Below, piece by piece: positions 20,138 through 51,900 of a stretch of 52,847 nt of DNA; position 1 is the stretch's first letter, and each line of letters starts with the position of its first letter. A program made the position numbers and the translations under genes. The stretch spans positions 1 through 52,847 of the forward strand of contig JANRLT010000050.1 in NCBI GenBank assembly GCA_033762255.1, read 5' to 3'. The DNA is from Pirellulales bacterium (GTDB lineage: Bacteria > Planctomycetota > Planctomycetia > Pirellulales > JALHPA01). The notes under the pieces were generated by a model. The model did no database searches. It was not told where the DNA came from and was given only the letters and a program-made list of their open reading frames with translations.

Positions 20138-20327
20138 GGGTTAGGGATCAGGGGCGAAAATACACAAAGCCGCCGATGGTCTCGGCGGTGCGGGCGTGGG
20201 TAGGACAGGGGCGTGAGACGCGGGTGGCGGGGTGGAACCTCAGCGAGCCCCCTGCTTAACAAAGTCAGAAGGATGAATGCAGAAGGAAGAATGACTGCAA
20301 ATCAATTCTTCATTTTTAATTCTTAAT
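20138..20327 (+). repeat. 3' repeat cassette after the YdeP-type gene
   Basis: After the stop come GGGGTTAGGGATCAGGGG, the CCGCCGA/TCGGCGG hairpin, a GGGTGGCGGGG...CAGCGAGCCCCCTG block, then AAAGTCAGAAGGATGAATGC and an AT-rich tail. The same order of blocks (GTGGCGGGGGACGAGCC, GAGGACCCCGTCGGG, AAAGTCAGAATTCAGAATG) follows the isomerase gene at about 31900-32050. This is a composite noncoding repeat in a convergent gap. Confidence 0.6.
20170..20188. repeat. CCGCCGAT-type hairpin, copy 2
   Basis: CCGCCGA (20170-20176) and TCGGCGG (20182-20188) pair perfectly around TGGTC. The flank ACACAAAG before the left arm is shared with the copy at 48564. Confidence 0.65.
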
Positions 20328-24558: not shown

Positions 24559-27500
24559 TTACGCCCCTCGTCCCGCCTGTTGCACCACGCGCTGCAACCG
24601 CAAGCGATTTTCTCTTTGTAAGCGCTGGCAATCCCGCAGCAATTTGTCCGAATCCGGGTAGCCCAACAGCGCGGCCAGTTTGGCCAATTCGGCCGGTTGT
24701 CGCGGCAGGTCATTTAGCGCGGTCATATTCATCAAACGCAAGCGGCCTTGGATCGTGCGCAACACCTGATAACTGGTCGTCAGGTAATCACAATCGTCGG
24801 CCGTCAGTAACCGATGTTCCCGCAACAGCCCCAAGGCCGCGAGGGTGTTGGGTTCGCGAATTTGCGGCAGTTCTCCCCCGTATTTTAGCTGCAACAGTTG
24901 CACGATGAATTCGACATCCAAGACCCCCCCCGGTCCCCGCTTGAGGTTTAAATCCGTGGCTCCCTCTTGCATGCGCATGCGCATTTCATAAATTTCCGCG
25001 GCAAATTCCGGACGCCAGGGGTGGGCGTACATCGCCGCCGCCAGGGTCTGTCGCACCACGTCGTGGCAAGCCGCGCTGCCATGTACAATCCGTCCCCGCG
25101 CCAGTGCCTGCCGTTCCCACAGTTGACCTTCCCCCGCTTCAAAATAACGCAGGAATTCAGCCAGGGACGTGACCAGCCGTCCGCTTTTGCCGGTGGGACG
25201 CAGGCGGGCGTCAATCTCGTACAATTTGCCGTGCGGTCCCAGGGTTCCGGCGGTTTTTACAATCCGCTGCGCCAGTTCGCTAAAAAAGTGTTGGTTGCTG
25301 GTCGTTTCGCCGCTGCGTCGAGATCTGCGCGCATGAAACGTGCCTCCATCGCCACTATATAAAAACAGCAAATCCAGGTCGCTGTGATAGTTGAGTTCCC
25401 GCCCTCCAAATTTGCCCAACGCCACCACGATCAATTCCGCTCCCCCACCTCCGCCGTCGGATTGGCTGGCTAATTGCGGTTCGCCATATTTTGCGGTCAA
25501 GCGGTCAAATTCGGTCTGGGCGATCTGGCTTAGGACCGCCTCGGCGATGTTGCACAATGCTTCGTTGATCCGCTCGACCGGCTCCTTGTTTAGAATGTCG
25601 CGCACGCCCACGCGCAGGCGTTCGGCCTTGGCAAAGCTGTGCAAGATGGGAGTCACATCCTCGGCTCCGCGGGCCAGTTCTTGCAATTGTTGGCGTAGTT
25701 GCCCGGCGGTGGGAAGTTTATCCAACAGCAGGCTATCGAGTAATTCGTCGATCATGCCGGGATTTTGCGTAAGCAGGTCGCACAGATACGGGCTTGAGGC
25801 GCATAATTCGACATATAACTCGAGCGAGGGGGGGTTAAAGCTAAAAAGTTCCCACAATACCGCCTTACCACCCAAATGATCACTGACGCGGGTCAAATTC
25901 TTGAGGGTGGCGTCGGGATCGGCGGTGGCGGAAAGGGCCGCCAACAACCGCGGGGCGATCGCCGCCAAAAAGTGTCGACACCGCCGCTGTGACAGGTACC
26001 GCACGCTTTCATGCGCCAGGGCCAGCAAGTTTTGATACGCGGCCGTATTGTCCGCAAAGCGGTATTTGGACAGGACTTCGTGAATCAGTTCCAGACTGGG
26101 ATCGGGGTCAAAAATCAGATCGCTTTCCGGCGCCGAGGTTTCATCATCGACAAACGCATCATGCAGCAAATGGTCCAGGATTTTGCGGTTGAGTTGGGTC
26201 ACACGCTCTAGGTCGGCCATGAACGTCGATTGTGGAGTTCCGGCGGGGGTTTCGCCGTAGCCCAGCCGCAAGGCCAACCGCCGCAATTCGGCTGGTTGGG
26301 CGGGAAGGCGATGCGTTTGCAGGTCGTACATGATCTGCAAATAATGCTCCACCCTGCGTAAAAAAGTGTAGTTTTCTTCCAGAAGAACGCGTTCTTGATT
26401 GGTCAGGCAGCCAGCGTTTTCCAGTTCGACAATCGCCGCCAGGGTGTTAGTCGTGCGAACGCGGGGCAAATCCCCCCCGTTGAGTAATTGCAGAAATTGA
26501 ATGACAAATTCGATATCGCGGATGCCCCCCCGTCCGCTTTTGACATCGGTGGCTTCGCCGCCGGCGCGGCGGGCCCGGCCCTCGATCCGACGCTTAAGCG
26601 CGCTAATGCCCGTGATATCCGCCCGACTCAGATAGCGGCGATAAATCCACGGCTCTAGCCGGGTAAGAAACTCCCGTCCCACCGCCAGATTTCCTGCGGC
26701 CGCGCGAGCCTTGACTAGCGCCTGGCGCTCCCAGGTCCGGCCCGACAGGTCGTAGTAATGTAGCGCGGCCTCGGTACTGGTGATAACCAGGCCGCTTTGC
26801 CCGCCGGGTCGCAAACGCAGATCCACGCGGTACACGCTACCCAGCGCGGTCGATTCCGTCAGCAAACGGACAATTTCGCGGGCCAGGCGATCATAGTATT
26901 CCTGAGCCGCCGCGGCCGCCAGGCGGTTCTGTCCCGCCGCCGCTTCATAGACAAACATCAGGTCAATATCGCTTGAATAATTCAGTTCATTACCGCCAAG
27001 TTTGCCAAACGCCAGCACGGCCAAACGGGGCGGAGCGACGGTTGTTCCCTTGGGCGTTTGTTTTTTTCGCAATAAGGTTTGCTCCGCGGCCAGGACCGCG
27101 GCTTCCAGCAGGGCATCGGCCAGATAAGATATTTGCCGCGTCACGGTCTCTAGCCGCAATCCGCGAATGATATCGCCATAGGCAATGCGCAGGGTTTCCC
27201 GCCGTTTAAAACGCCGCAGCGCGGTCAGCACGTGCCGCTCGTCCGGCAGGGAAAGCACTTCACTGGTGATTTCTTGAATCAAGACTTCGCGGGCCACCGC
27301 TTCGCCCGCGGTCATACGTAAAAGGTCGTAGCTTTCGGGATCACTAATCAGCAGCTCGCCCAAATAATGGCTGGCGGCAAAAATTTGCAACAGCGTTCCC
27401 AGCGATTCCGGTTCGCGCTCCCACAAGCTAGCCAAGCCCAGGGGATTGCGCGCGGCGCTGACAAAACGCTCTAAACTATTCAGCGCGCGGTCGGGATCGC

Positions 27501-27687
27501 TCAGTTGCGGTAGCTCCGCCAGTAGTTGCTGGCACACTCGCCCCAGCAATTCCGGCGGCAAGCCCCGTTGGGCCAGGCCGGTCAAGTTAGCCACGGCGCG
27601 GGGTATGTCTTGGACACCCCATGGTTTGAGGGTCGCGCTGGCGGCGGCGGGATCTGCCAACCATTCCCAAGTTTCAAAGACGGCCAT
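24559..27687 (-). CDS. glnE: Bifunctional glutamine synthetase adenylyltransferase/deadenylylase
   Basis: A 1042-residue protein with the duplicated GlnE architecture. Each half has a nucleotidyltransferase core: GKLGGNELNYSSDIDLMFVY in the N-terminal half and GKFGGRELNYHSDLDLLFLY in the C-terminal half. Each core is followed by GRTWERQALVKARA or QLWERQALARGR and by an RGGIRDIEFVIQ or PGGVLDVEFIVQ helix. GlnE adds and removes AMP on glutamine synthetase in response to PII and glutamine, controlling nitrogen assimilation. The frame is open to 27885, but the extra 66 residues are Gly/Cys-rich and unlike the family; the ATG at 27687 (MAVFETWEWL) is preferred. No glnA or glnB is in the window. 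Confidence 0.95.
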   Translation of the reverse strand: MAVFETWEWLADPAAASATLKPWGVQDIPRAVANLTGLAQRGLPPELLGRVCQQLLAELPQLSDPDRALNSLERFVSAARNPLGLASLWEREPESLGTLLQIFAASHYLGELLISDPESYDLLRMTAGEAVAREVLIQEITSEVLSLPDERHVLTALRRFKRRETLRIAYGDIIRGLRLETVTRQISYLADALLEAAVLAAEQTLLRKKQTPKGTTVAPPRLAVLAFGKLGGNELNYSSDIDLMFVYEAAAGQNRLAAAAAQEYYDRLAREIVRLLTESTALGSVYRVDLRLRPGGQSGLVITSTEAALHYYDLSGRTWERQALVKARAAAGNLAVGREFLTRLEPWIYRRYLSRADITGISALKRRIEGRARRAGGEATDVKSGRGGIRDIEFVIQFLQLLNGGDLPRVRTTNTLAAIVELENAGCLTNQERVLLEENYTFLRRVEHYLQIMYDLQTHRLPAQPAELRRLALRLGYGETPAGTPQSTFMADLERVTQLNRKILDHLLHDAFVDDETSAPESDLIFDPDPSLELIHEVLSKYRFADNTAAYQNLLALAHESVRYLSQRRCRHFLAAIAPRLLAALSATADPDATLKNLTRVSDHLGGKAVLWELFSFNPPSLELYVELCASSPYLCDLLTQNPGMIDELLDSLLLDKLPTAGQLRQQLQELARGAEDVTPILHSFAKAERLRVGVRDILNKEPVERINEALCNIAEAVLSQIAQTEFDRLTAKYGEPQLASQSDGGGGGAELIVVALGKFGGRELNYHSDLDLLFLYSGDGGTFHARRSRRSGETTSNQHFFSELAQRIVKTAGTLGPHGKLYEIDARLRPTGKSGRLVTSLAEFLRYFEAGEGQLWERQALARGRIVHGSAACHDVVRQTLAAAMYAHPWRPEFAAEIYEMRMRMQEGATDLNLKRGPGGVLDVEFIVQLLQLKYGGELPQIREPNTLAALGLLREHRLLTADDCDYLTTSYQVLRTIQGRLRLMNMTALNDLPRQPAELAKLAALLGYPDSDKLLRDCQRLQRENRLRLQRVVQQAGRGA

Positions 27688-27991: not shown

Positions 27992-29551
27992 ATGATGAAA
28001 ATTGTACTGACACGCTTTCCTTGGTGGGGGTGGCGGCTGTTTTTAGCTGGTCTGCTGGGGACGAATGGACTAGGGGTGGGAATTTGGCCCGCCCTGGGCC
28101 AACCGGGTGAGCCCGCTTCGGCGGCCAATTCCGCACTGCTGGCCGCCTGGGAAGCGGAACTGACCGCCGCCATTGCCAAATGCGAAAAATCCGTGGTTGC
28201 CATCGCCCGGGTCGATCCCCAGCCCGCGCCTGCCCGGGCTCCTAATTTGGCAAATGGTGCCAACCCACAACAACCACTGCTGTTACGGGCGTTGGATGAC
28301 CCCGATAGCCCGGATTTTCGGCCAGATTTGTTTGCCACGGGCATCGTGGTTGATAAGAACGGCCTGATTTTGACAAACTATCATGTGGTGGGGCTGAATA
28401 GCCAGCATTGGGTGACCACACCGGATCGACGGCGGTACCGCGCCACCATCAAGGGGGCTGATCCGCGCAGCGACTTGGCCGTGCTGGAGATCGCGGCCAC
28501 CGACCTGACACCCATGCCCCTGGGGGATGGAAACGCCCTGAAAAAAGGGCAATTCGCCATCGCGCTGGGGAATCCCTATGCCATTGCGGAGGATGGCTCC
28601 GCCAGCGCGGCGTGGGGCCTGATTGCCAACCTGGGTCGAAAAATTCCCGTGGATCAAACGCAGCCGCAGGCGGGACGCGATAAACTGTACCATTATGGAA
28701 TGTTGGTTCAAACCGATGCGAAGCTCAATCTGGGGACTAGCGGCGGCGCGCTTATTAACCTGCGTGGCGAAATGATCGGCCTGACCACCGCGCAGGCGGC
28801 ATTGTCGGGTTATGAACAGGCGGCCGGTTATGCCTTGCCCGTGAATGAAACTTTTCGCCGCGTGGTCGAGACACTCAAAGCAGGCCGCGAGGTCGAATAC
28901 GGATTCTTGGGGGTCAAACCAGAAAACCTAACCCAAGCTGAGCGGCAAAACCTGCCGGGTGATTTGGGCCAAGGAGGGGTTCGCATTGCCGAGGTCGTTC
29001 CCGGGACGCCCGCCGAACGAGCGGGGGTGCGGGCGGGGGACCTGCTGACGCATATTGACCAACAATTACTGCGCGACACGGACGATCTGGTCCTGCGGAT
29101 GGGGCAGTTTCCCATCGAGACAAAATTGCCGGTGCGGTTGGTGCGTAACCAGCGTCCGCTGGCATTGGCGGTGGAGTTGACCAAATATCCGGTAAAAGGG
29201 GAAAAGATTATCACTACTCCTCCCGCGCTATGGCGGGGAATGGGGATCGATTTTGCGACAGCGCTGCCGGACGACTTTGAACGGGTGAACCGGTTGCCGC
29301 TGTTTCGTGGCGGCGGGGTCGCCGTTTTGCATGTCACGCCGGGAAGTCCGGCCGCCACGGCGGGTTTGCAGTCGGGAATGTTTATCACCGCCGTGGGAGA
29401 GCAACCCATCGCCAGCCCGCGCGAGTTTCGCGCGGCGGTGGCGGAATTGTCCGGCCCCGTCCAGTTGCAAACAATCACTCCCGCCGGAGCCAATACCCAG
29501 CTCGAGCCGCGCACCGTCATGGAAGGGGAAGCCCCCCCCGACGCGCGCTAA
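27992..29551 (+). CDS. HtrA/DegP-like trypsin-type serine protease with two PDZ domains
   Basis: A 519-residue exported protein. A signal peptide covers about residues 1-36 (LFLAGLLGTNGLGVGIWPAL). The protease domain has the catalytic triad His131 in LTNYHVVG, Asp161 in RSDLAVLE and Ser250 in LGTSGGAL; the usual GNSGG is GTSGG. PDZ1 (about 300-390) carries YGFLGVKPENL and GTPAERAGVRAGDLLTHID; PDZ2 (about 415-505) carries VAVLHVTPGSPAATAGLQSGM. HtrA proteases degrade or refold damaged envelope proteins. The next gene downstream, a parvulin-type isomerase, also fits envelope protein quality control. The ATG at 27992 is followed by a second ATG at 27995. Confidence 0.92.
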   Translation: MMKIVLTRFPWWGWRLFLAGLLGTNGLGVGIWPALGQPGEPASAANSALLAAWEAELTAAIAKCEKSVVAIARVDPQPAPARAPNLANGANPQQPLLLRALDDPDSPDFRPDLFATGIVVDKNGLILTNYHVVGLNSQHWVTTPDRRRYRATIKGADPRSDLAVLEIAATDLTPMPLGDGNALKKGQFAIALGNPYAIAEDGSASAAWGLIANLGRKIPVDQTQPQAGRDKLYHYGMLVQTDAKLNLGTSGGALINLRGEMIGLTTAQAALSGYEQAAGYALPVNETFRRVVETLKAGREVEYGFLGVKPENLTQAERQNLPGDLGQGGVRIAEVVPGTPAERAGVRAGDLLTHIDQQLLRDTDDLVLRMGQFPIETKLPVRLVRNQRPLALAVELTKYPVKGEKIITTPPALWRGMGIDFATALPDDFERVNRLPLFRGGGVAVLHVTPGSPAATAGLQSGMFITAVGEQPIASPREFRAAVAELSGPVQLQTITPAGANTQLEPRTVMEGEAPPDAR

Positions 29552-31896: not shown

Positions 31897-32114
31897 GCGC
31901 GGCGGCAGGGGCAGGGAAGATGGGGTAGGGGTGAGGGAACAGGGAACGGGGGCAGGGGAGCCACGGGTGGCGGGGGACGAGCCCTAGCGAGGACCCCGTC
32001 GGGCAAAGTCAGAATTCAGAATGAAGAAGTCAAAATTGCTGCATTTCCAATCTACTTCTGCACTCTGCATTCAGCATTCTAACTTTGATTGGGGGACGAT
32101 GATTTGGCCGTAGC

Positions 32115-32162
32115 GGCGAGTTTTACTCGCCGAACTGGCCGTAGCGGCGAGTTCCACTCGCC
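32115..32162. repeat. Tandem GTAGCGGCGAG hairpins
   Basis: GGCGAGT/ACTCGCC (32115-32131, loop TTT) is followed directly by a second copy (32146-32162, GGCGAGTTCCACTCGCC). Both are led by GTAGC and trailed by GAA. Single copies occur at 48229-48245 and 48673-48689 with leader GTACC. Confidence 0.75.
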
Positions 32163-32237
32163 GAATTAGTTTTTAGTTACTGGTTTTTGGTATTTGGTTC
32201 AAAAGTCTTTCTAGCGCAAATCGGTTACAACCCCTAG

Positions 32238-32801: not shown

Positions 32802-34325
32802 TTATTTCCCCAACCGATTCAGCGTGTAGTACGCCTCCGGGTGCAAGAGCGGCTGGCCCGTCGCGCTGCGAATGCCGTCCAGGTGGAACTCGTGGATGTG
32901 GCCCAGTTGCAGGCCGTCGATCACCAGCCGGACGCTTTTGCCATCGTCCCCCGCCCGGGCGGAAAGAATCTTGGGATGCGTGTGGTCCACCTCGGGGCTG
33001 CCATACTGGCTTTGGTAGATATAGGTGTAGGTTAAAAGCTCATAGGAACTTAGGTTTTCCACGCTCGCTTTGTCCACCGGCTGGGTAAAGGTCAGTTCAA
33101 ACCCGTCCGGCTTGGCCCGCATTTCGTGAACTTCAAAAGGTGTTTTGCCGGTCCAGCGCAGCCGATCCAGCGAGAACGGCTTGCTCCCCCGCGAACCCCA
33201 GCCGCGGTTGGTCCCGCCGATAAACATGGTGCCATCCTCCCCCTGCGCCAGACTGAGCGCGCCCGAGCCAGCCCCTTCACGAAAGGGAAACGCCACACCC
33301 TGGTACTGGCCGTCAATCTCCTCCAAAAACACGCGCATCACCGTGCTATGGCCCTGATCAGTGACAAACATTTGCCCGGCGAAGGGGCCAAATTTGCCGC
33401 CAGAATGATCGGTGATGATCCCCGCCGCCGACTGGCCCATCTTGTTATAGGGGAGCAGCACCGCGGTGGGGACTAGTTCGGGCACGCGGGCCTGTTCGGG
33501 GACCATTCGTCCTCCATCCTTGGGCTGGGGGGGCGTTTTGCCAAATTCCGGGGTGTACCATTTCCAGCCGCCGGGATGGCCCATAAAGCCGCCGGGCTTG
33601 AGATGCTTGAGTCCGCAGGTACCGTTCCAGGGGCCTTGGTTGTCGGTGTAAAAGACGTCTCCTTTGTCATTCATGCCGATCCCCCCGGGGGACCGGACGC
33701 CGCTGCACGTGGGGACCGCCGTGCCGTCGGGCTTGATCCGCAGACACCAACCACGGTAGGGAACATCGCTGCTAAACGAGCCCGTCAAGCACAAGACCAG
33801 CCACAGGTCCCCCGCCTTGTCAAATTTAGAGGTAAACGCGTACTCATGGTAGTCGCCGCTGATTTCCCACCCATCGGCAAAGTTGACAAACAGATCAGCC
33901 TGGCCATCGCCGTTGGTGTCTTTGAGCTTGGTGATTTCTCCCCGCTGGGTGGCATAGAGGTATCCGTCCCGCCAGGCCAGGCCAAGGACTTCGTGCAGGC
34001 CGCCGGCGAATTTTTGAAATTTGACTTTATCAAGCGTCGGTTCGAACAGGCCAGAAATGGTGTAGATGTCGCCGCGGCGGGACGCGAACGCCAATTGACC
34101 GTCGGGAAGCAGCTCCAGCGCGCCCGCCTCCAGCACGATGCCATCGGGAATGGTCACCGGCTCGAGCGTGTAGTATTCCCGCTCTTTTTCCGCCGAAAAC
34201 GTGCCATTGCGTCCGGCGGGTTGGGCCAACAGCGGAATGGTCCACAAGAACCCGACGGCTAGGAGGCCCAGGATCATGCCGAAGCGGAATAAGCGTGCGA
34301 TCAAGGGTGGGGATGTGCGAATCAT
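32802..34325 (-). CDS. Secreted beta-propeller protein (sugar-dehydrogenase/PQQ-like fold, planctomycete type)
   Basis: A 507-residue product with a signal peptide ([20 protein letters not shown]). The body looks like a six-bladed beta-propeller of the glucose/sorbosone dehydrogenase-like group: [74 protein letters not shown]. The final 120 residues ([22 protein letters not shown]) form an immunoglobulin-like domain common in planctomycete haem-binding proteins. No CxxCH site is present. It lies 153 bp downstream of the multihaem cytochrome gene on the same strand, so the pair probably acts together in periplasmic oxidation. The ATG at 34325 is preferred to a TTG at 34331. Confidence 0.85.
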
Positions 34326-34395
34326 GATCAAGGAATGGGGAAATGTGGATGAGTGATTTAAAATTTTCAGATCTGGGATTTCAGATCAAAATTTC

Positions 34396-34415
34396 AAATT
34401 TGAGATCTCAAATTT
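34396..34415. repeat. 20-bp perfect palindrome in an AT-rich spacer
   Basis: AAATTTGAGATCTCAAATTT is its own reverse complement. Around it (34370-34435) are further TTTCAGATCTGRGA-like repeats, so the whole 60-bp stretch can fold in several registers. It lies between the cytochrome gene and the propeller gene and could affect processing or expression within the pair. Confidence 0.7.
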
Positions 34416-34460
34416 CAGATCTGAGAATTGAGATTCAAAATTGATTGGTGAAACCTGTTT

Positions 34461-34480
34461 CGGCGACGGAGTCGCCTCCT
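34461..34480. repeat. GGCGAC hairpin overlapping the cytochrome stop codon
   Basis: On the minus strand this reads AGGAGGCGACTCCGTCGCCG, identical over 20 bases to 48141-48160. The TAG stop of the large cytochrome gene (34479-34481) is the TAG of the repeat's GTAGGAGG leader, so the element begins inside the stop codon. Confidence 0.8.
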
Positions 34481-37400
34481 ACCAGTGATACTCGAGCGTC
34501 AATTCCGACTGGCCTGCTCCACCAATAGGCACTAGCAATTCCTGCTGGTTGTTTTGGTCGCGCAGTGTCGCCGTCAGACCGTCGGGGAGTTGCAGCTTGA
34601 GGATCAGATTATCATCGACCCGATAGGTCCCGGCCCCTTCCGGCAAGGGGACAATTTTTCCCGCTGCCACGCGATACCACAAATCCTTTTGTCCCTCGGG
34701 CACGGTAAATGACAGCGTCCGCGTTAAAAAGTTTTCCGTGGTGTTGCTGCTTCCCCGGGGGAAATCAATCACGCGCACCAACTGGCCATCCGCCAGTTTG
34801 CCCGTGGGGGACCATTCGTAGCGAAACGCGGGACGTCGCTGTTCATCCAGCGAATAGCCTAAAAAGCGATAGCCCGGGGCTTTGGCCCGCATATCTTGCT
34901 CGGTGGATGGCCAGGGGGCCTCGGGATTATCCAGCCTAGCCAGGGGCGGTCCGGCAAATAGCTTGAGCACTTTGTTTCCCAGCGGTTTTTCAAATCCTTC
35001 GCCACGCCCTTCCCAGTGGCGTTTGCCATCCATGAATTTTCCCTGCCAGATCAGCGGCAAACTTAATCGGTTGGCATCCCAGGCGATATTCACTTCCTCG
35101 GGGTAGCCCACGCCGATGCCGCGGGGACTGGCCCCTTCGATGAAGTTACGGTAAATCACCGCTTCTCCCCCCACGACCAATTCCAATCCCTGCGTGATCA
35201 GGCCCGTGGGTGTTTTCGCTTTGCGGCCATCCTCTAGATACGCCCAGAGGGCTTGAATTTGGCGGGTGGGATCGCCATCCAGAATAGCGCGTTGGGTGCT
35301 TTTGCCGTTAATAAACGCCTGGGGCATGCGGGTGCCGGGGCGGTATTCGCTGGGGTTAAGCATATAACGGGCGAACCATTCGGGGCGCAGGCGATCGCGC
35401 AGGGTGGTCAGGTCCAGCGCCTGAATGCCCAGCGACTTTTGCCGGTTGAACATGTGGCAAGAGATACATCCCAGTCCCTCTTTGCTGACCAGGGCATGTC
35501 CGGCAGCTTTCAGTTCGGCCGGGGGATCGGAGGGAATTGGCAAAGAACTTTTGACCAGATCGATCGAGGCAAAATCCCCTGGCAAGGCACCGATATTGGC
35601 CTCGCCAAAGGCGGGCATGCGGGTATCCATGTAGGGGCGGGCGACCCCGTTGCCAGCCAGGACCTTGGTGATCCAGGTGGCAAGCAGTTTATCCCCCACG
35701 CCCGTGAGCGTCGGCGGCAAACGTCCTTCATCCCCCAGGTCGGGGCTATTGGCCGTAAAGTAGGGGTCGCGCTCGCGAATGACGCCGCCAAAATCCTGGG
35801 TGTGAGGTGCTTCTCCGTTATTACCTGCTATCAGCGGAGCGGAGCGTTTGTGGCAGGCATAGCAGTTGAGCGCCATCAGACGAAAATGCGTCTGTTCCGC
35901 CAGAGAACGTTCTGGCAGCGCGGATTTTTGGATGGAGGTCAACGCCTCCCGCAAGGCGGATTGCTGCGAGTCATTTAGCTGATAGAAGGGATGAGCTGCG
36001 GCGGGTTGGGGGGCCAGGCAACCGGCTTGGCCCCGAAAATCGACAATCGGCGGTGCGGCTTTTCCCGGAGGATTGTCGCCGGTTGGACCCAATTGATGGC
36101 AATTGGCACAGCCCACGGTCGTAAAGAGCCGGGCGCCTTCCCGGGCTAGTTGTGCATCCACAACAAACGGTTGCTCGGCGGGGGGGGGATCCTTGGACGC
36201 GGTCAACAGCGCGCTGGGAATCGGTCCCTGTTCGATATTTGGCCCCTTGAACTTCACGTTGAGCGTGGCTTGGCCACCGCCTTGAAAATAAACCAGCCGG
36301 ATCGCATGCTTGCCGGGCTGCAGGGTAATTGTCCCCGACTTTTGCTGGGTGGCATGAATGCCATCATTGTCTACGACCAATTGGTCATCGATCCACAGCC
36401 CCGTGCCGTCATCGGAGGAGACAAAAAACGTGTAGTCCCCCGCGGTCGGTATCTCCAGGTATCCCTCAAACTTCATGGCGAAATTGCTTTTGCCTGCGTA
36501 TTCCCCCAGTTCAAAGCGAAAAGCATTGCCCACCGTGGTTGGTTGCAGTTGATCCAGTTCCGCGAGCGAATTGATACTATGTTCATAGATCGATTGCCGC
36601 AACGGCGCTGGGACTTGGGTGTCCTTGAGCAGGTAGTTCGCGATATCGTTAGCTTCCTGCGCTGTTAAATGCAAATGGGGCATCCGACCGCTGGGGCGAA
36701 TGGCCAGTGGATTCTGCAAGAAGCCAAATAGGCCCGCCAGCGAATACTTTTCGTGCAACTTGCGCGACAGCGGGATCGAGGTGGCGTTCAGATCGATGCG
36801 GGGCGTGGCTTCGTCTTCATTTACCGGGGCGGGGCCGCGATCCTCGCGCGGGGCATGGCAGGCGACGCAACCAACCTTGTGAAATAAATTTTGCCCCCGC
36901 CCAATCGCCGCGGTATCAACCGCCGAACGGCTAAACGGCTGGCTGGCTAGCGATGCTAAATAATGCGTCAACGCCGCGGCCTGCGCCTGGGCCTGCTCAG
37001 GCGGCAAATGGGCGAGCAAACTGGGCATGGTCGTGCCAGGCTTGGTCCCGTGCGTATTGGCAATGAATTTTTGAAGAAAGCGGGGATCGGCCCGTTGGGC
37101 GATTTCCCCCAGGTAGGGGGCCTGCTTTTTTAATAACAGGGCTTCCGCCGCGGCGGGAACCTGATGACAACTCGTGCAGTTAAGTTCCCCCAGCAGCAAG
37201 TATCCGCCTGATAAAAGCTGCGCCGCATGCGCGGGATCCTCTCCCGCGGGCAGTTGGGCGTGCAGCCGATCAAATCCACTGACTATCGCATGGTCCGCGA
37301 CGGCAACTGCGGGAGCCGGGCTCTGGGGGGTGGCGGTGACCGGAGCGACAAGCACCAACGTCATCCAGCCCAGCGCCACTGTGGCAAACCGAACAAGCGG

Positions 37401-37502
37401 CGAAAAAGCGTTGTCGGTCGCGCGAAGACCCCGCTGGCCAATTCTATCTTCAATCGATTCTCCGCTGACAGAAAAAGAATAATTTTGCGTCATCGTAAAC
37501 AT
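34479..37502 (-). CDS. Exported pentahaem cytochrome c with PA14 domain
   Basis: A 1007-residue product, exported by an N-terminal hydrophobic segment (FATVALGWMTLVLVAPV). Five CxxCH haem sites are visible, in order: CTSCH, CVACH, CANCH, CYACH and CISCH. Between the second and third lies a PA14 domain (about residues 320-440: EGYLEIPTAGDYTFFVSSDD, GTGLWIDDQLVVDND, LQPGKHAIRLVYFQGGG), a carbohydrate-binding module. The C-terminal third (EEVNIAWDANRLSLPLIW onward) resembles planctomycete cytochrome-associated domains. This suggests electron transfer coupled to binding or oxidation of a glycan or sugar. The propeller gene follows on the same strand. The ATG at 37502 is chosen; the frame is open to 37556 but without homology. 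Confidence 0.88.
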   Translation of the reverse strand: MFTMTQNYSFSVSGESIEDRIGQRGLRATDNAFSPLVRFATVALGWMTLVLVAPVTATPQSPAPAVAVADHAIVSGFDRLHAQLPAGEDPAHAAQLLSGGYLLLGELNCTSCHQVPAAAEALLLKKQAPYLGEIAQRADPRFLQKFIANTHGTKPGTTMPSLLAHLPPEQAQAQAAALTHYLASLASQPFSRSAVDTAAIGRGQNLFHKVGCVACHAPREDRGPAPVNEDEATPRIDLNATSIPLSRKLHEKYSLAGLFGFLQNPLAIRPSGRMPHLHLTAQEANDIANYLLKDTQVPAPLRQSIYEHSINSLAELDQLQPTTVGNAFRFELGEYAGKSNFAMKFEGYLEIPTAGDYTFFVSSDDGTGLWIDDQLVVDNDGIHATQQKSGTITLQPGKHAIRLVYFQGGGQATLNVKFKGPNIEQGPIPSALLTASKDPPPAEQPFVVDAQLAREGARLFTTVGCANCHQLGPTGDNPPGKAAPPIVDFRGQAGCLAPQPAAAHPFYQLNDSQQSALREALTSIQKSALPERSLAEQTHFRLMALNCYACHKRSAPLIAGNNGEAPHTQDFGGVIRERDPYFTANSPDLGDEGRLPPTLTGVGDKLLATWITKVLAGNGVARPYMDTRMPAFGEANIGALPGDFASIDLVKSSLPIPSDPPAELKAAGHALVSKEGLGCISCHMFNRQKSLGIQALDLTTLRDRLRPEWFARYMLNPSEYRPGTRMPQAFINGKSTQRAILDGDPTRQIQALWAYLEDGRKAKTPTGLITQGLELVVGGEAVIYRNFIEGASPRGIGVGYPEEVNIAWDANRLSLPLIWQGKFMDGKRHWEGRGEGFEKPLGNKVLKLFAGPPLARLDNPEAPWPSTEQDMRAKAPGYRFLGYSLDEQRRPAFRYEWSPTGKLADGQLVRVIDFPRGSSNTTENFLTRTLSFTVPEGQKDLWYRVAAGKIVPLPEGAGTYRVDDNLILKLQLPDGLTATLRDQNNQQELLVPIGGAGQSELTLEYHW

Positions 37503-37784
37503 GGTAGGGAGTGAATCGTCAATGTTGGTAAATTTCAACGGAGGAGCGCGCGGCAATATGATTTTTGCGCGGGTCGCGCTCGCGGCAATCCAGGTGGGGG
37601 AGAAATCTCAGGCGGGCAAAGTTTCAGGCGGGACTGGCAGGTTCACAAATACTAATCCACTAGATACTAATCAAAAGAATTAGCAAATGCTAGTAAATTC
37701 TGCCCGGCAACCACGGTTACCAATAATGTCATTTTTTTCTTTGCGGTTACCATTTATTTACCCTCTTGATCGCTCAATGCTATT

Positions 37785-48110: not shown

Positions 48111-48144
48111 TTTTGCGGTGTGGCATGTGGCATCAATTGTAGGA

Positions 48145-48159
48145 GGCGACTCCGTCGCC
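48145..48159. repeat. GGCGAC-TCC-GTCGCC hairpin
   Basis: Perfect six-base arms around TCC with leader GTAGGA. The 20 bases 48141-48160 equal the minus-strand sequence at 34461-34480. A covarying version is at 48644-48658. Confidence 0.75.
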
Positions 48160-48228
48160 GATCTGGTTTTTGTTTAGCCGCGACGCGCAGCGGAACGCGG
48201 GTTAGAGACGAGAAGCAAAACCCGTACC

Positions 48229-48245
48229 GGCGAGTTTTACTCGCC
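48229..48245. repeat. GGCGAGT-TTT-ACTCGCC hairpin
   Basis: Perfect seven-base arms with leader CCCGTACC. The same hairpin is at 48673-48689, also led by CCCGTACC, and in tandem at 32115-32162 with leader GTAGC. Confidence 0.75.
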
Positions 48246-48340
48246 GATCTGGTATTTGGTTGCTGGTATTTGGTTTTTGGATTTTGGAGGCTGGTTTTTG
48301 GAACTTAAGCTTCCTACCGCGAAGCGGTTACAGCACATAG

Positions 48341-48390: not shown

Positions 48391-48443
48391 CCCTCTCCCG
48401 ATAGCGACTTTCTCTTTTATATAAATCCCCTATCGGGAGAGGG
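48391..48443. repeat. Inverted repeat with 14-bp arms
   Basis: CCCTCTCCCGATAG (48391-48404) and CTATCGGGAGAGGG (48430-48443) are perfect inverted copies with a 25-base AT-rich loop, followed by CCGGGGTGAGGG. Similar CTCTCCC...GGGAGAGGG...GGGGTGAGGG repeats are widespread in bacterial genomes. Confidence 0.75.
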
Positions 48444-48563
48444 CCGGGGTGAGGGATGCTGGAAATTGGTAGTTAGTATGGTTGTTAAAGCCAAGGACTA
48501 TCCCGCAGATATCACAGCCCCCAGCCGCTGGGCTAACGCGGCGCCGGAAAACCAGACACAAAG

Positions 48564-48582
48564 CCGCCGATGACATCGGCGG
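48564..48582. repeat. CCGCCGAT-GAC-ATCGGCGG hairpin, copy 4
   Basis: Perfect eight-base arms. The leader ACACAAAG and a G-rich follower (GTGGGACGAGGGTTGCGGGG) are shared in part with copies at 16654 (inverted) and 20170. Confidence 0.7.
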
Positions 48583-48643
48583 TGGGGGTGCGTGGGACGA
48601 GGGTTGCGGGGCGCGGGGTGAGAGTTGCGTGAAAAATGTAGGA

Positions 48644-48658
48644 GGCAACTCCGTTGCC
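48644..48658. repeat. GGCAAC-TCC-GTTGCC hairpin (covarying copy)
   Basis: Compared with GGCGAC-TCC-GTCGCC at 48145, the left arm has G to A and the right arm C to T at the paired position, so pairing is kept. Leader GTAGGA is the same. Confidence 0.75.
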
Positions 48659-48672
48659 GAATTCCCCGTACC

Positions 48673-48689
48673 GGCGAGTTTTACTCGCC
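48673..48689. repeat. GGCGAGT-TTT-ACTCGCC hairpin, second copy
   Basis: Identical to 48229-48245, including the CCCGTACC leader. It directly follows the GGCAAC hairpin, so the two hairpin types form a composite here. Confidence 0.75.
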
Positions 48690-48935
48690 TAATCCAGCTC
48701 CAGCGGACCGAAATCTTTATAGCCAGCGCCAAAAACTCCACCTACTATCCCTCTGAATTCACAGCCCCAGCGAGCGCGGCGGCATAGGAAATGGTTATCC
48801 GCAACCCCCCTTCTGCATTTTTAATCGTAATTTTTTAATTTAAACCATCAAATCCTAACGTTCTCTTTGCTAAAATTGTAGTTACCCTCCACGAGCAATC
48901 TCCCATAAACTGACAACATTCGGGCAGACCAAATT

Positions 48936-48970: not shown

Positions 48971-51900
48971 GTCCAACGCGCGTGATCTTTTCGGTGGCTC
49001 TCAACAAGGCCCAGACTCCCGTTCGGCCAGGCTCTTTTCCGCCACGCGCCGCCGCCGCGCGGGATTTGAACAGTTAGAAACACGCCTCCCCCTGGCGGGG
49101 GATCTGGAGTTGGTGAAGGATATTAATCAGGATTTCTATTCTTCGACTCCCGGGCTACTTGTCGATGTAGGTGGGACGTTATACTTTGTGGCTGAAGATG
49201 GAATCAGCGGCCAAGAACTCTGGAAAAGTGATGGGACTGAGGCTGGTACAGTCCTTGTTAAGGATATTTGGCCAGGGACTCAATCGTCATCCCCATTTTA
49301 CCTGACGAACGTCGGCGGGACACTCTTCTTCAGTGCTGATGACGGTACAACTGCCAGGCAGCTTTGGAAAAGTGATGGAACTGAAGCGGGTACAATACGT
49401 GTTAAGGATTTATTTTTAGGTTTTGGTCCTGATCCAAGTAACCTAACAAGTGTTGGAGGGACGCTATTTTTCACAAGGATTGATGCGTTCAACAACAGCT
49501 CAGAACTCTGGAAAAGTGATGGCACCGACGCTGGAACGGTATTAGTTAAAAAATTTCTATCTGGTTTACCCGGTGCAAGCATACAACACTTGACAGACGT
49601 TGGTGGTTCTCTCTTTTTTTCTGCCAATGAGGGTGTCAGTGGCGATGAACTTTGGAAAAGCGACGGGACCGAAGCGGGCACCATCCTTGTCAAGGATATT
49701 CTTCCAGGAGGAGGCTCCTCTAGTCCTCGTTACTTAACTGACGTTGGTGGAACGCTTTACTTCAGTGCTACTGATGGGGGCAGTGGCCACGAATTATGGA
49801 GAAGTGATGGCACCGAGACAGGCACCGTCCTTGTCAAGGATATCCGACCAGGAACCGCATCTTCGTTCCCCTCCTCCTCGTTTTATTCCGGTTACCCTCT
49901 GATAATCAATGTTGGTGGAACGGTTTATTTTGGCGTCACTGACGGGGTAAGCGGCGCTCAGCTATGGAGGAGCGACGGGACCGAAGCCGGTACCGTCCTT
50001 GTCAAGGATCTTTTTACGGGTAATGCGTTTTACTCTACCTCTCGATCCTTGTATGACGTCAATGGCACCGTCTTTTTTGCTGCTGGCAACAGTGCAAGTG
50101 GCTTTGAGTTATGGAAGAGCGATGGGACAGAGTCAGGCACCGTACAAGTCAAGGACATCTGGCCGGGAGCTCGATCCTCGTTTGGCTTTTTTGGTGTTAG
50201 CTTCGTAACTAAAATCGGCGCGACGCTCTATTTTCAAGCTGACGACGGGGTCAGCGGCAGTGAATTGTGGAAGAGCGACGGGACCGAGGCCGGCACCGTC
50301 CGTGTGAAGGACATTCTGCCGGGTTCTAGGAAATCTGATCCTCGCTACTTGACCAACTTAGGAGGCACGCTTTACTTTCGAGCGGATGACGGATCGAGTG
50401 GCACGGAGCTTTGGAGGAGCGACGGGACGGAGGCAGGCACGGTACGTGTCAAGGATATCCGACCGGGCACCTTACTCGTTCCACCTCGCGACTTAACAGA
50501 CCTTGGAGGGACACTTTACTTTACAGCAAGTGAACTGAATTCTAATTTTGAGCTCTGGAAAAGTGATGGGACTGAAACGGGCACAATCCTGGTTAATGAT
50601 ATCTACAAGGATTACCCTGGTGGGCAACCTCGCTATCTTACCAATGTTGCCGGGCTACTCTACTTTACGGCTAATGACCGAGTAAGCGGGATTGAACTCT
50701 GGAAAAGCAATGGAACCGTGGCTGGTACCGTGCGTGTCAAGGATATCCGGCCCGGAAACCAGAACTCTGAACCTCGGAATCTAACAAATGTCGGTGGGAT
50801 ACTTTTTTTCACTGCGGATGATGGAATAAGCGGCCGTGAACTGTGGAGAAGCGACGGTACTGAGGCAGGCACCGTACGCGTCAAAGATATAAGGCCAGGT
50901 ATAGGTACAGGATCATATGGTGGTTTAAGCTCTAATCCTACTTTATTGAAAGAAGTCGGCGGAAAGCTTTATTTTAGTGCAAATGACGGTGTCAGCGGCT
51001 ACGAACTGTGGAAGAGCGACGGGACCGAAGCCGACACCGTCCGCGTCAAAGATATCCGGCCTGGTTCATATTTATCAAGTTCAAGCCCTAGTAACCTTAC
51101 GGACGTCAACGGAACTCTTTTCTTTATAGCCAATGACGGTCTCAGCGGTGTAGAGCTCTGGAAGAGCGACGGTATGGAAGCCGGCACTGTGCGCGTTAAG
51201 GATATTCGACCTGGAGCAGACTCCGCGTTCAATCCAAATTTTCCCGGATTCTTAACGAACTTCAATGGGACACTTTACTTTCGCACAAATAATGGAATCA
51301 GCGGCTTTGACCTGTGGAAGAGCGACGGGACTGAAGCTGGAACTGTTCGCGTTGCTGACGTCGATCCTCGTTATATTACGAATATCAACGGAACCTTATT
51401 CTTTAGTGGCTATGACAACATAGCTGGCCGTGAGCTGTGGAAGAGCGACGGGACTGAAGCTGGAACTGTTCGCGTTAAGGATATTTGGTCTGGAATAGCA
51501 AATGCCTATCCGATTAGTCTCACCAACGTCCACGGCACGCTCTATTTTCGTGCCAACAATGGGCTAGACGGCACCGAACTCTGGAAAAGCGACGGGACCG
51601 AGGCCGGGACTGTCCCGGTTCGCTTGCCTGGAAATCTGCCCCTCCAAAGCCCGTCGGCAATAACTGTTGCTGGCGACCGTGTATATGTCGCGGGCACGCG
51701 GCCAGATATCGGAACGGAACTCTATTCAATCCAGCTCAACCCCGCCGCACCTTCCGGGTTGACGGCCACGCCCACGGGGGCTAATAAAATCCAGCTTTCC
51801 TGGACCGATAACGCCACCAGCGAGACCGGCTACCGCGTCGAACGCTCCACCAGTGGCCCTGGTGGCCCCTTTACCACGATAGCCACGCTCCCCGCCAATG

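Follow-up and report, generated by a model that had tools for sequence, protein, structure and literature searches.

The window, a stretch of 52,847 nucleotides from a Pirellulales bacterium, contains on its minus strand a gene for a multihaem c-type cytochrome with a PA14 domain (34479..37556; an open frame with an uncertain start codon and matches to Pfam PF00034 and PF07691). The next gene on the same strand is an open frame at 32802..34331, whose product shows a weak, below cut-off match to the PVC-type heme-binding protein TIGR02604. On the minus strand, the cytochrome gene ends with TAT CAC TGG TAG and is followed by GAGGCGACTCCGTCGCCG. The TAG stop codon (34479..34481, minus strand), which is defined by translation and by the same end residue in homologues, lies within the GTAG tag of a 22-base element, GTAGGAGGCGACTCCGTCGCCG, at 34461..34482 on the minus strand. 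The element consists of this tag and a hairpin and exactly matches a repeat family that we call REP1. The hairpin, GGCGAC-TCC-GTCGCC (34462..34476, minus strand), has a stem of 6 bp and a loop of 3 nt. In the RNA fold, it starts 2 nt 3' of the TAG and leaves GTAG unpaired at its 5' foot, with a folding energy of -9.7 kcal/mol, a modest improvement on shuffled sequences (z -1.89). An earlier note on this DNA had already proposed that a repeat element holds the cytochrome TAG and folds straight after the stop, and both proposals agree with the sequence and with the position of the 6-bp stem. The interval given there, 34461-34481, was correctly placed but one base too short for the 22-mer that it quoted, because it omitted the first G, the third position of the Trp codon.

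What kind of element holds the cytochrome stop codon? A second exact copy of REP1, with all 22 bases identical, is located in intergenic DNA at 48139..48160 on the plus strand, 28 nt behind a predicted 390-aa gene, and the two copies are 93% alike when they are compared over 30 bases. This copy had been recorded as a 20-base core at 48141-48160; the intergenic location stands, and the match is longer than the core. A third copy (48638..48659, plus strand) has two mismatches and carries a compensating A-T stem pair. The 15-base hairpin occurs at five sites in the window when up to two mismatches are allowed, compared with 0.22 expected, and none of 100 shuffles reached five. Three of the five sites are REP1, and those at 29309 and 35640 fall outside the 22-mer family.

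The window's own genome (G000; 5.47 Mb in 72 contigs) harbors 101 copies of the REP1 22-mer at up to three mismatches, 24 of them exact, and the reversed pattern returns no match, in agreement with the earlier description of a dispersed repeat. At the fourth stem position, 60 of the 101 copies have a G-C pair and 36 have an A-T pair, and all six Watson-Crick pairs are intact in 80, which points to compensating changes in the stem. The TAG is intact in 96 copies; a T precedes the tag in 91, and an A follows the element in 99. Genes around the copies were called with our own codon-usage script instead of a standard gene finder, usually with at least 1.5 kb of context per side. None of the 101 copies lies inside a called gene, a count that covers only genes of typical codon usage, given that the caller missed the RAYT gene described below. 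In 68 of the 84 copies that have called genes on both sides, the left neighbor is on the strand of REP1 itself. No inverted REP1 partner was found near 34461, where the REPIN arrangement of two inverted REPs in one unit is therefore lacking, and the REP1 copies of this genome do not form inverted pairs.

REP1 can be assigned to the GTAG super-family of REPs because it combines a short palindrome with an unpaired GTAG on the 5' side and is present in many copies, and the element at the cytochrome stop is a single copy of such a REP, a kind of element that was known before. Di Nocera, De Gregorio and Rocco (2013, PMC3733652) describe that flanking ORFs often obtain their stop from the TAG of the GTAG tag, and they report GTAG REPs also from the PVC group, including Planctomycetes. 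REP1 resembles the GTAG REPs of that article in its unpaired 5' GTAG, its short palindrome, its high copy number, its mostly intergenic location and its association with a tyrosine transposase. REP1 is a family of a Pirellulales genome, and it was compared with the 24 GTAG families described there in general features. The REPs of Pseudomonas, Xanthomonas and Stenotrophomonas that are associated with RAYTs follow the same plan (Nunvar et al. 2010, PMC2817692); a tabulated example, GTAGGAGCGCGCTCGCGCGCGA, consists of GTAGGAG and a palindrome. However, REP1 differs from them in its stem and in the mostly uniform direction of its neighboring copies, 15 of 16 pairs within 200 nt pointing the same way. 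Moreover, E. coli REPs are described in PMC8266576 as imperfect palindromes with a bulge, whereas the REP1 palindrome is perfect.

REP1 adds a Pirellulales REP family that has a RAYT gene beside family copies. This RAYT gene (L045:2176-2820, contig C17) matches NCBIfam NF047646, the model for REP-associated tyrosine transposases (RAYTs), with 114 bits against a cut-off of 80 and is bracketed by REP1 in opposite orientation, with copies at 56632 and 56490 on the minus strand and at 55871 and 55825 on the plus strand. The listed RAYT open frame extends back across the copy at 56490, and the true RAYT start is therefore probably downstream of that copy. Its position suggests that the C17 RAYT mobilizes the REP1 family, a pairing to be read against the 10 Y1-transposase family matches in this genome, one of which carries internal stops. 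A decayed Y1-transposase reading with three TAG codons and one TAA codon inside is located at C42:27709-27954 (L038, L082), approximately 200 nt from a REP1 copy with three mismatches (27487-27508).

The natural end of the cytochrome was examined in two sets of homologues, with at least one genome common to both. The first set contained 30 loci, from which the window itself, one locus that runs off its contig end and four distant homologues with other ends were left out. Of the resulting 24 close homologues, 22 end with Trp and a stop (10 TAA, 7 TAG and 5 TGA). The remaining two, from a single genus, have Asn as their last residue, in one case six residues beyond a Trp. The second set consisted of the best 80 of 527 named loci, among which a Pirellulales metagenome genome (JALHPA010000443.1) provides the nearest homologue; 79 loci reach a stop, and all 79 end with Trp and a stop (28 TGA, 27 TAG and 24 TAA). 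At some loci, the alignment ends a few to many residues early, and the comparison there rests on the shared final Trp. In up to 220 nt downstream of the 79 named homologues, no sequence closer to REP1 than seven mismatches was found. The closest relative compared (G001) shares only the family with the window's genome, and its contig stops before the end of the cytochrome gene; REP1 was not found in this genome, which is 73% complete. The nearest named homologue, in JALHPA010000443.1, has match coordinates identical to those of the G001 locus, which would place the window in a planctomycete of that family; the named set may exclude records of the window's own genome. Because the Trp-stop end is common to the homologues, the cytochrome ends where its relatives end, and the repeat appears to have come to lie on an ancestral stop. 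Trp is encoded by TGG only, and a Trp codon followed by a TAG stop thus spells GTAG even without a repeat. Judging from the homologue ends, the cytochrome protein is not shortened by REP1. This result disagrees with the earlier proposal that the element replaced or truncated the gene end, since the homologues share this final Trp and have other sequence behind it, and the worry that a mobile repeat had shortened a large respiratory protein is answered in the negative.

The cytochrome gene is not the only gene that ends in REP1. A genome-wide count of copies at stop codons, which the earlier note had suggested, shows that the REP1 TAG is the stop of a called gene in 8 of the 101 copies, the cytochrome included, with one frame-shifted reading and one shortened gene among them. 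For the GspF-like gene on C70, all 29 homologues end 0-8 residues before the GspF-like end, and for the HAD gene beside the RAYT gene on C17, the ends of all 29 homologues fall between -3 and +5 residues from the HAD end. The tails of the PPX-like gene on C14 are too variable among 29 relatives, and for the nitroreductase-like gene on C21, 2 of 16 loci were alignable, with ends +1 and -3 residues away. A further stop-holding copy is located at C15:75825. The copy at C65:198651 (L020) was set aside from the sound cases. It terminates a frame-shifted gene, which we take to be RarA-like, whose natural C-terminus is read in a different frame that reaches its stop further upstream, and the shifted frame, due to either a mutation or an assembly error, meets the REP1 TAG. 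The radical-SAM gene at C61:3289 (L069, L435) is the shortened one: all 10 homologues with data, from 12 examined, run 27-48 residues further. Homology breaks approximately nine codons before the element, the tail beyond the break is non-homologous and a search of the 900 nt downstream did not recover the missing residues (best E 0.12). This shortened gene ends in a REP, yet the break is not at the element. Therefore, among the four stop-holding copies with informative homologues, three (cytochrome, GspF-like and HAD) are at natural ends and the radical-SAM copy is not.

We propose that the cytochrome element is, with high probability, a single GTAG REP copy that was spread by a RAYT and whose tag lies exactly on the ancestral cytochrome stop, leaving the protein at its full length. 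REP1 would be a short non-autonomous repeat that is spread by a RAYT/TnpA-REP. Its arrival presumably took place close to or on a pre-existing TGG-stop, where the last G of the Trp codon and the TAG would together make up the 5' GTAG tag. The case is that of a common kind of REP located at an ancestral stop codon, and the general phenomenon has already been published (PMC3733652).

Once transcribed, the hairpin may make termination slower or give the 3' end some protection, effects that have been reported for stop-proximal REPs of E. coli. As cited in PMC12306157, Liang and co-workers found that E. coli REPs close to stops affect translation, and REPs within 15 nt of a stop are cited there as stalling ribosomes. 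The cytochrome copy resembles these REPs in carrying its hairpin within that distance, and its position 2 nt past the stop and before a same-strand gene would allow ribosome stalling and altered mRNA stability as in E. coli. REP1 could accordingly be viewed as a co-opted control element that is kept at stops, where stop and hairpin together would adjust termination, translation or the stability of the 3' end for the gene upstream. The spacing and the same-strand neighbor would suit such a role, but we consider it rather improbable because the element is absent at the same place in the 79 named homologues, which argues against an old, required role, and because 93 of the 101 copies lie away from the stop of any called gene. 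A hairpin directly behind the stop would also be expected if the cytochrome gene had an ordinary intrinsic terminator of transcription. This explanation is highly improbable and was rejected, given that a scan of the same strand over 34300-34560 detected no terminator-like site, that the stem is followed by GAAACAGG instead of a T run and that the sequence is dispersed 101-fold. Least probable, and close to negligible, is an insertion within the gene that truncated a once-longer cytochrome, which would fit the presence of the stop in the element and the short radical-SAM gene on C61 but conflicts with the Trp-stop ends of both homologue sets and with the absence, in all 101 copies, of a called gene that reads through in another frame, as random insertion before a stop would produce.

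A second REP family, REP2 (GTAGGTCCCGTCCGCCGGACGGGA), has 60 matches, a few of which are the same palindrome on the other strand. Among its 30 exact copies, two hold a stop and two overlap called genes on the opposite strand. The earlier note had named two observations that would speak against its reading, namely orthologues that end at the same residue before unrelated downstream sequence and a lack of other copies at stop codons. The first was made for the cytochrome homologues; the second was not, as seven other REP1 copies (six without the frame-shifted one) and the two REP2 copies lie at stops.

The distribution of REP1 across genomes is patchy. Any match was obtained in 30 of 97 searched genomes, the window's own included, and more than two matches in 11, counts of one or two being at the level of the reversed control. 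More than 30 matches were found, besides G000, in G015, G031, G057, G074, G080 and G085, where the matches listed mostly differ in the letters of the stem and often carry GTGG as the tag. A set of 30 loci from four relatives comprised 23 with GTAG and 7 with GTGG. The related family of G015 has a GTGG tag and a different stem and forms inverted pairs approximately 80 nt apart; none of its 30 loci is at a stop and four overlap called genes, many of the loci being the two arms of one pair. The GTGG tag contains no stop codon. The related family of G080 forms inverted pairs approximately 61 nt apart, and G015 and G080 offer a natural contrast of tags without and with a stop codon. In their inverted pairs, both families are reminiscent of REPINs, which Bertels and Rainey reportedly described in 2011 as REP units together with a RAYT, whereas the cytochrome copy is a single unit.

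REP1 coincides with stop codons more often than its density behind genes predicts. Twenty-five copies are located 0-50 nt behind same-strand genes, corresponding to 0.49 per nt, and eight copies at one position are therefore a strong excess (Poisson P 5e-8; 2e-7 against the density at 0-20 nt; 9e-7 with seven copies). The excess at the exact stop is 14-16-fold for seven or eight copies. A random landing model predicts approximately 1-fold, and a pure GTAG-target model predicts approximately 35-fold, as calculated from the 37 of 336 genes that end with G-TAG and from the GTAG frequency behind stops. Furthermore, only one frame holds the stop, and random insertion just before stops would thus be read through in two of three frames; such read-through is absent among called genes, as stated above. 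The T before the tag is missing from three of the eight stop copies, including that of the cytochrome, compared with its presence in 86 of the remaining 93 (Fisher P 0.03).

These numbers raise the idea that REP mobilization joins the hairpin to a GTAG already in the target. G-TAG amber stops would then be natural landing sites, and the "supplied" stop would be the gene's own. The REP1 numbers lean toward such landing on a pre-existing G-TAG and the REP2 numbers hardly do, and we regard the idea, for which the cases are few, as possible but unlikely. The two REP2 copies at a stop stand against 9 of 30 that start 0-11 nt behind one, and in the four related genomes, 1 of 30 loci is at a stop and 14 are within 0-50 nt. 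In addition, PMC8266576 presents GTAG as a likely guide that chooses CT or CA cleavage sites and not as the cleavage site itself, and landing on GTAG is thus not an accepted mechanism on that account. The question of whether REPs land on existing GTAG stops becomes answerable by strain pairs.

The relationship between hairpins and TAG stops in general was evaluated in a 562,847-base sample that consisted of the window and 26 stretches picked by round coordinates. Stems of at least seven pairs, a threshold that is blind to REP1 itself, follow 1 of 103 TAG stops. Stems of at least six pairs follow 3 of 103 TAG, 1 of 162 TAA and 0 of 71 TGA stops. One of the three TAG hairpins is that of the cytochrome; a second lies between two convergent genes, where the same palindrome also accounts for the TAA case. 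REPs would therefore account for no more than a few per cent of TAG stops, and a general, family-independent excess of hairpins after TAG stops was rejected. Genes upstream of REP1 use TAG in 34 of 61 cases, the eight stop-holders included, versus 24 of 89 for controls and the window and 103 of 336 in the larger sample; on visual inspection, several of these upstream genes have their ends within tags that belong to further REP families.

The window contains additional repeats. A further GTAG-type repeat is present at 32108-32169, 48222-48252 and 48666-48696, and its sequence GTAGCGGCGAGTTTTACTCGCCG has 27 sites at up to two mismatches in 861,038 bases of the genome. In the same 861,038 bases, a palindrome repeat, GCCGCCGATG...CATCGGCGG, found in the window at 20162-20194 and 48556-48588, gives 83 matches at up to three mismatches, some double-counted across strands. 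A perfect 20-bp palindrome, AAATTTGAGATCTCAAATTT, lies between the cytochrome and the next gene at 34396-34415 and has 10 matches at up to two mismatches in these bases, both strands counted. An inverted repeat, CCCTCTCCCGATA...TATCGGGAGAGGG, at 48391-48443 occurs also on C61, C46 and C14, and one form of it adjoins REP copies on C61. Finally, the region at 49143-51622 comprises up to 17 repeats, mostly at a spacing of 144 nt, and its DNA reads by eye as ELWKSDGTEAGT-like units.
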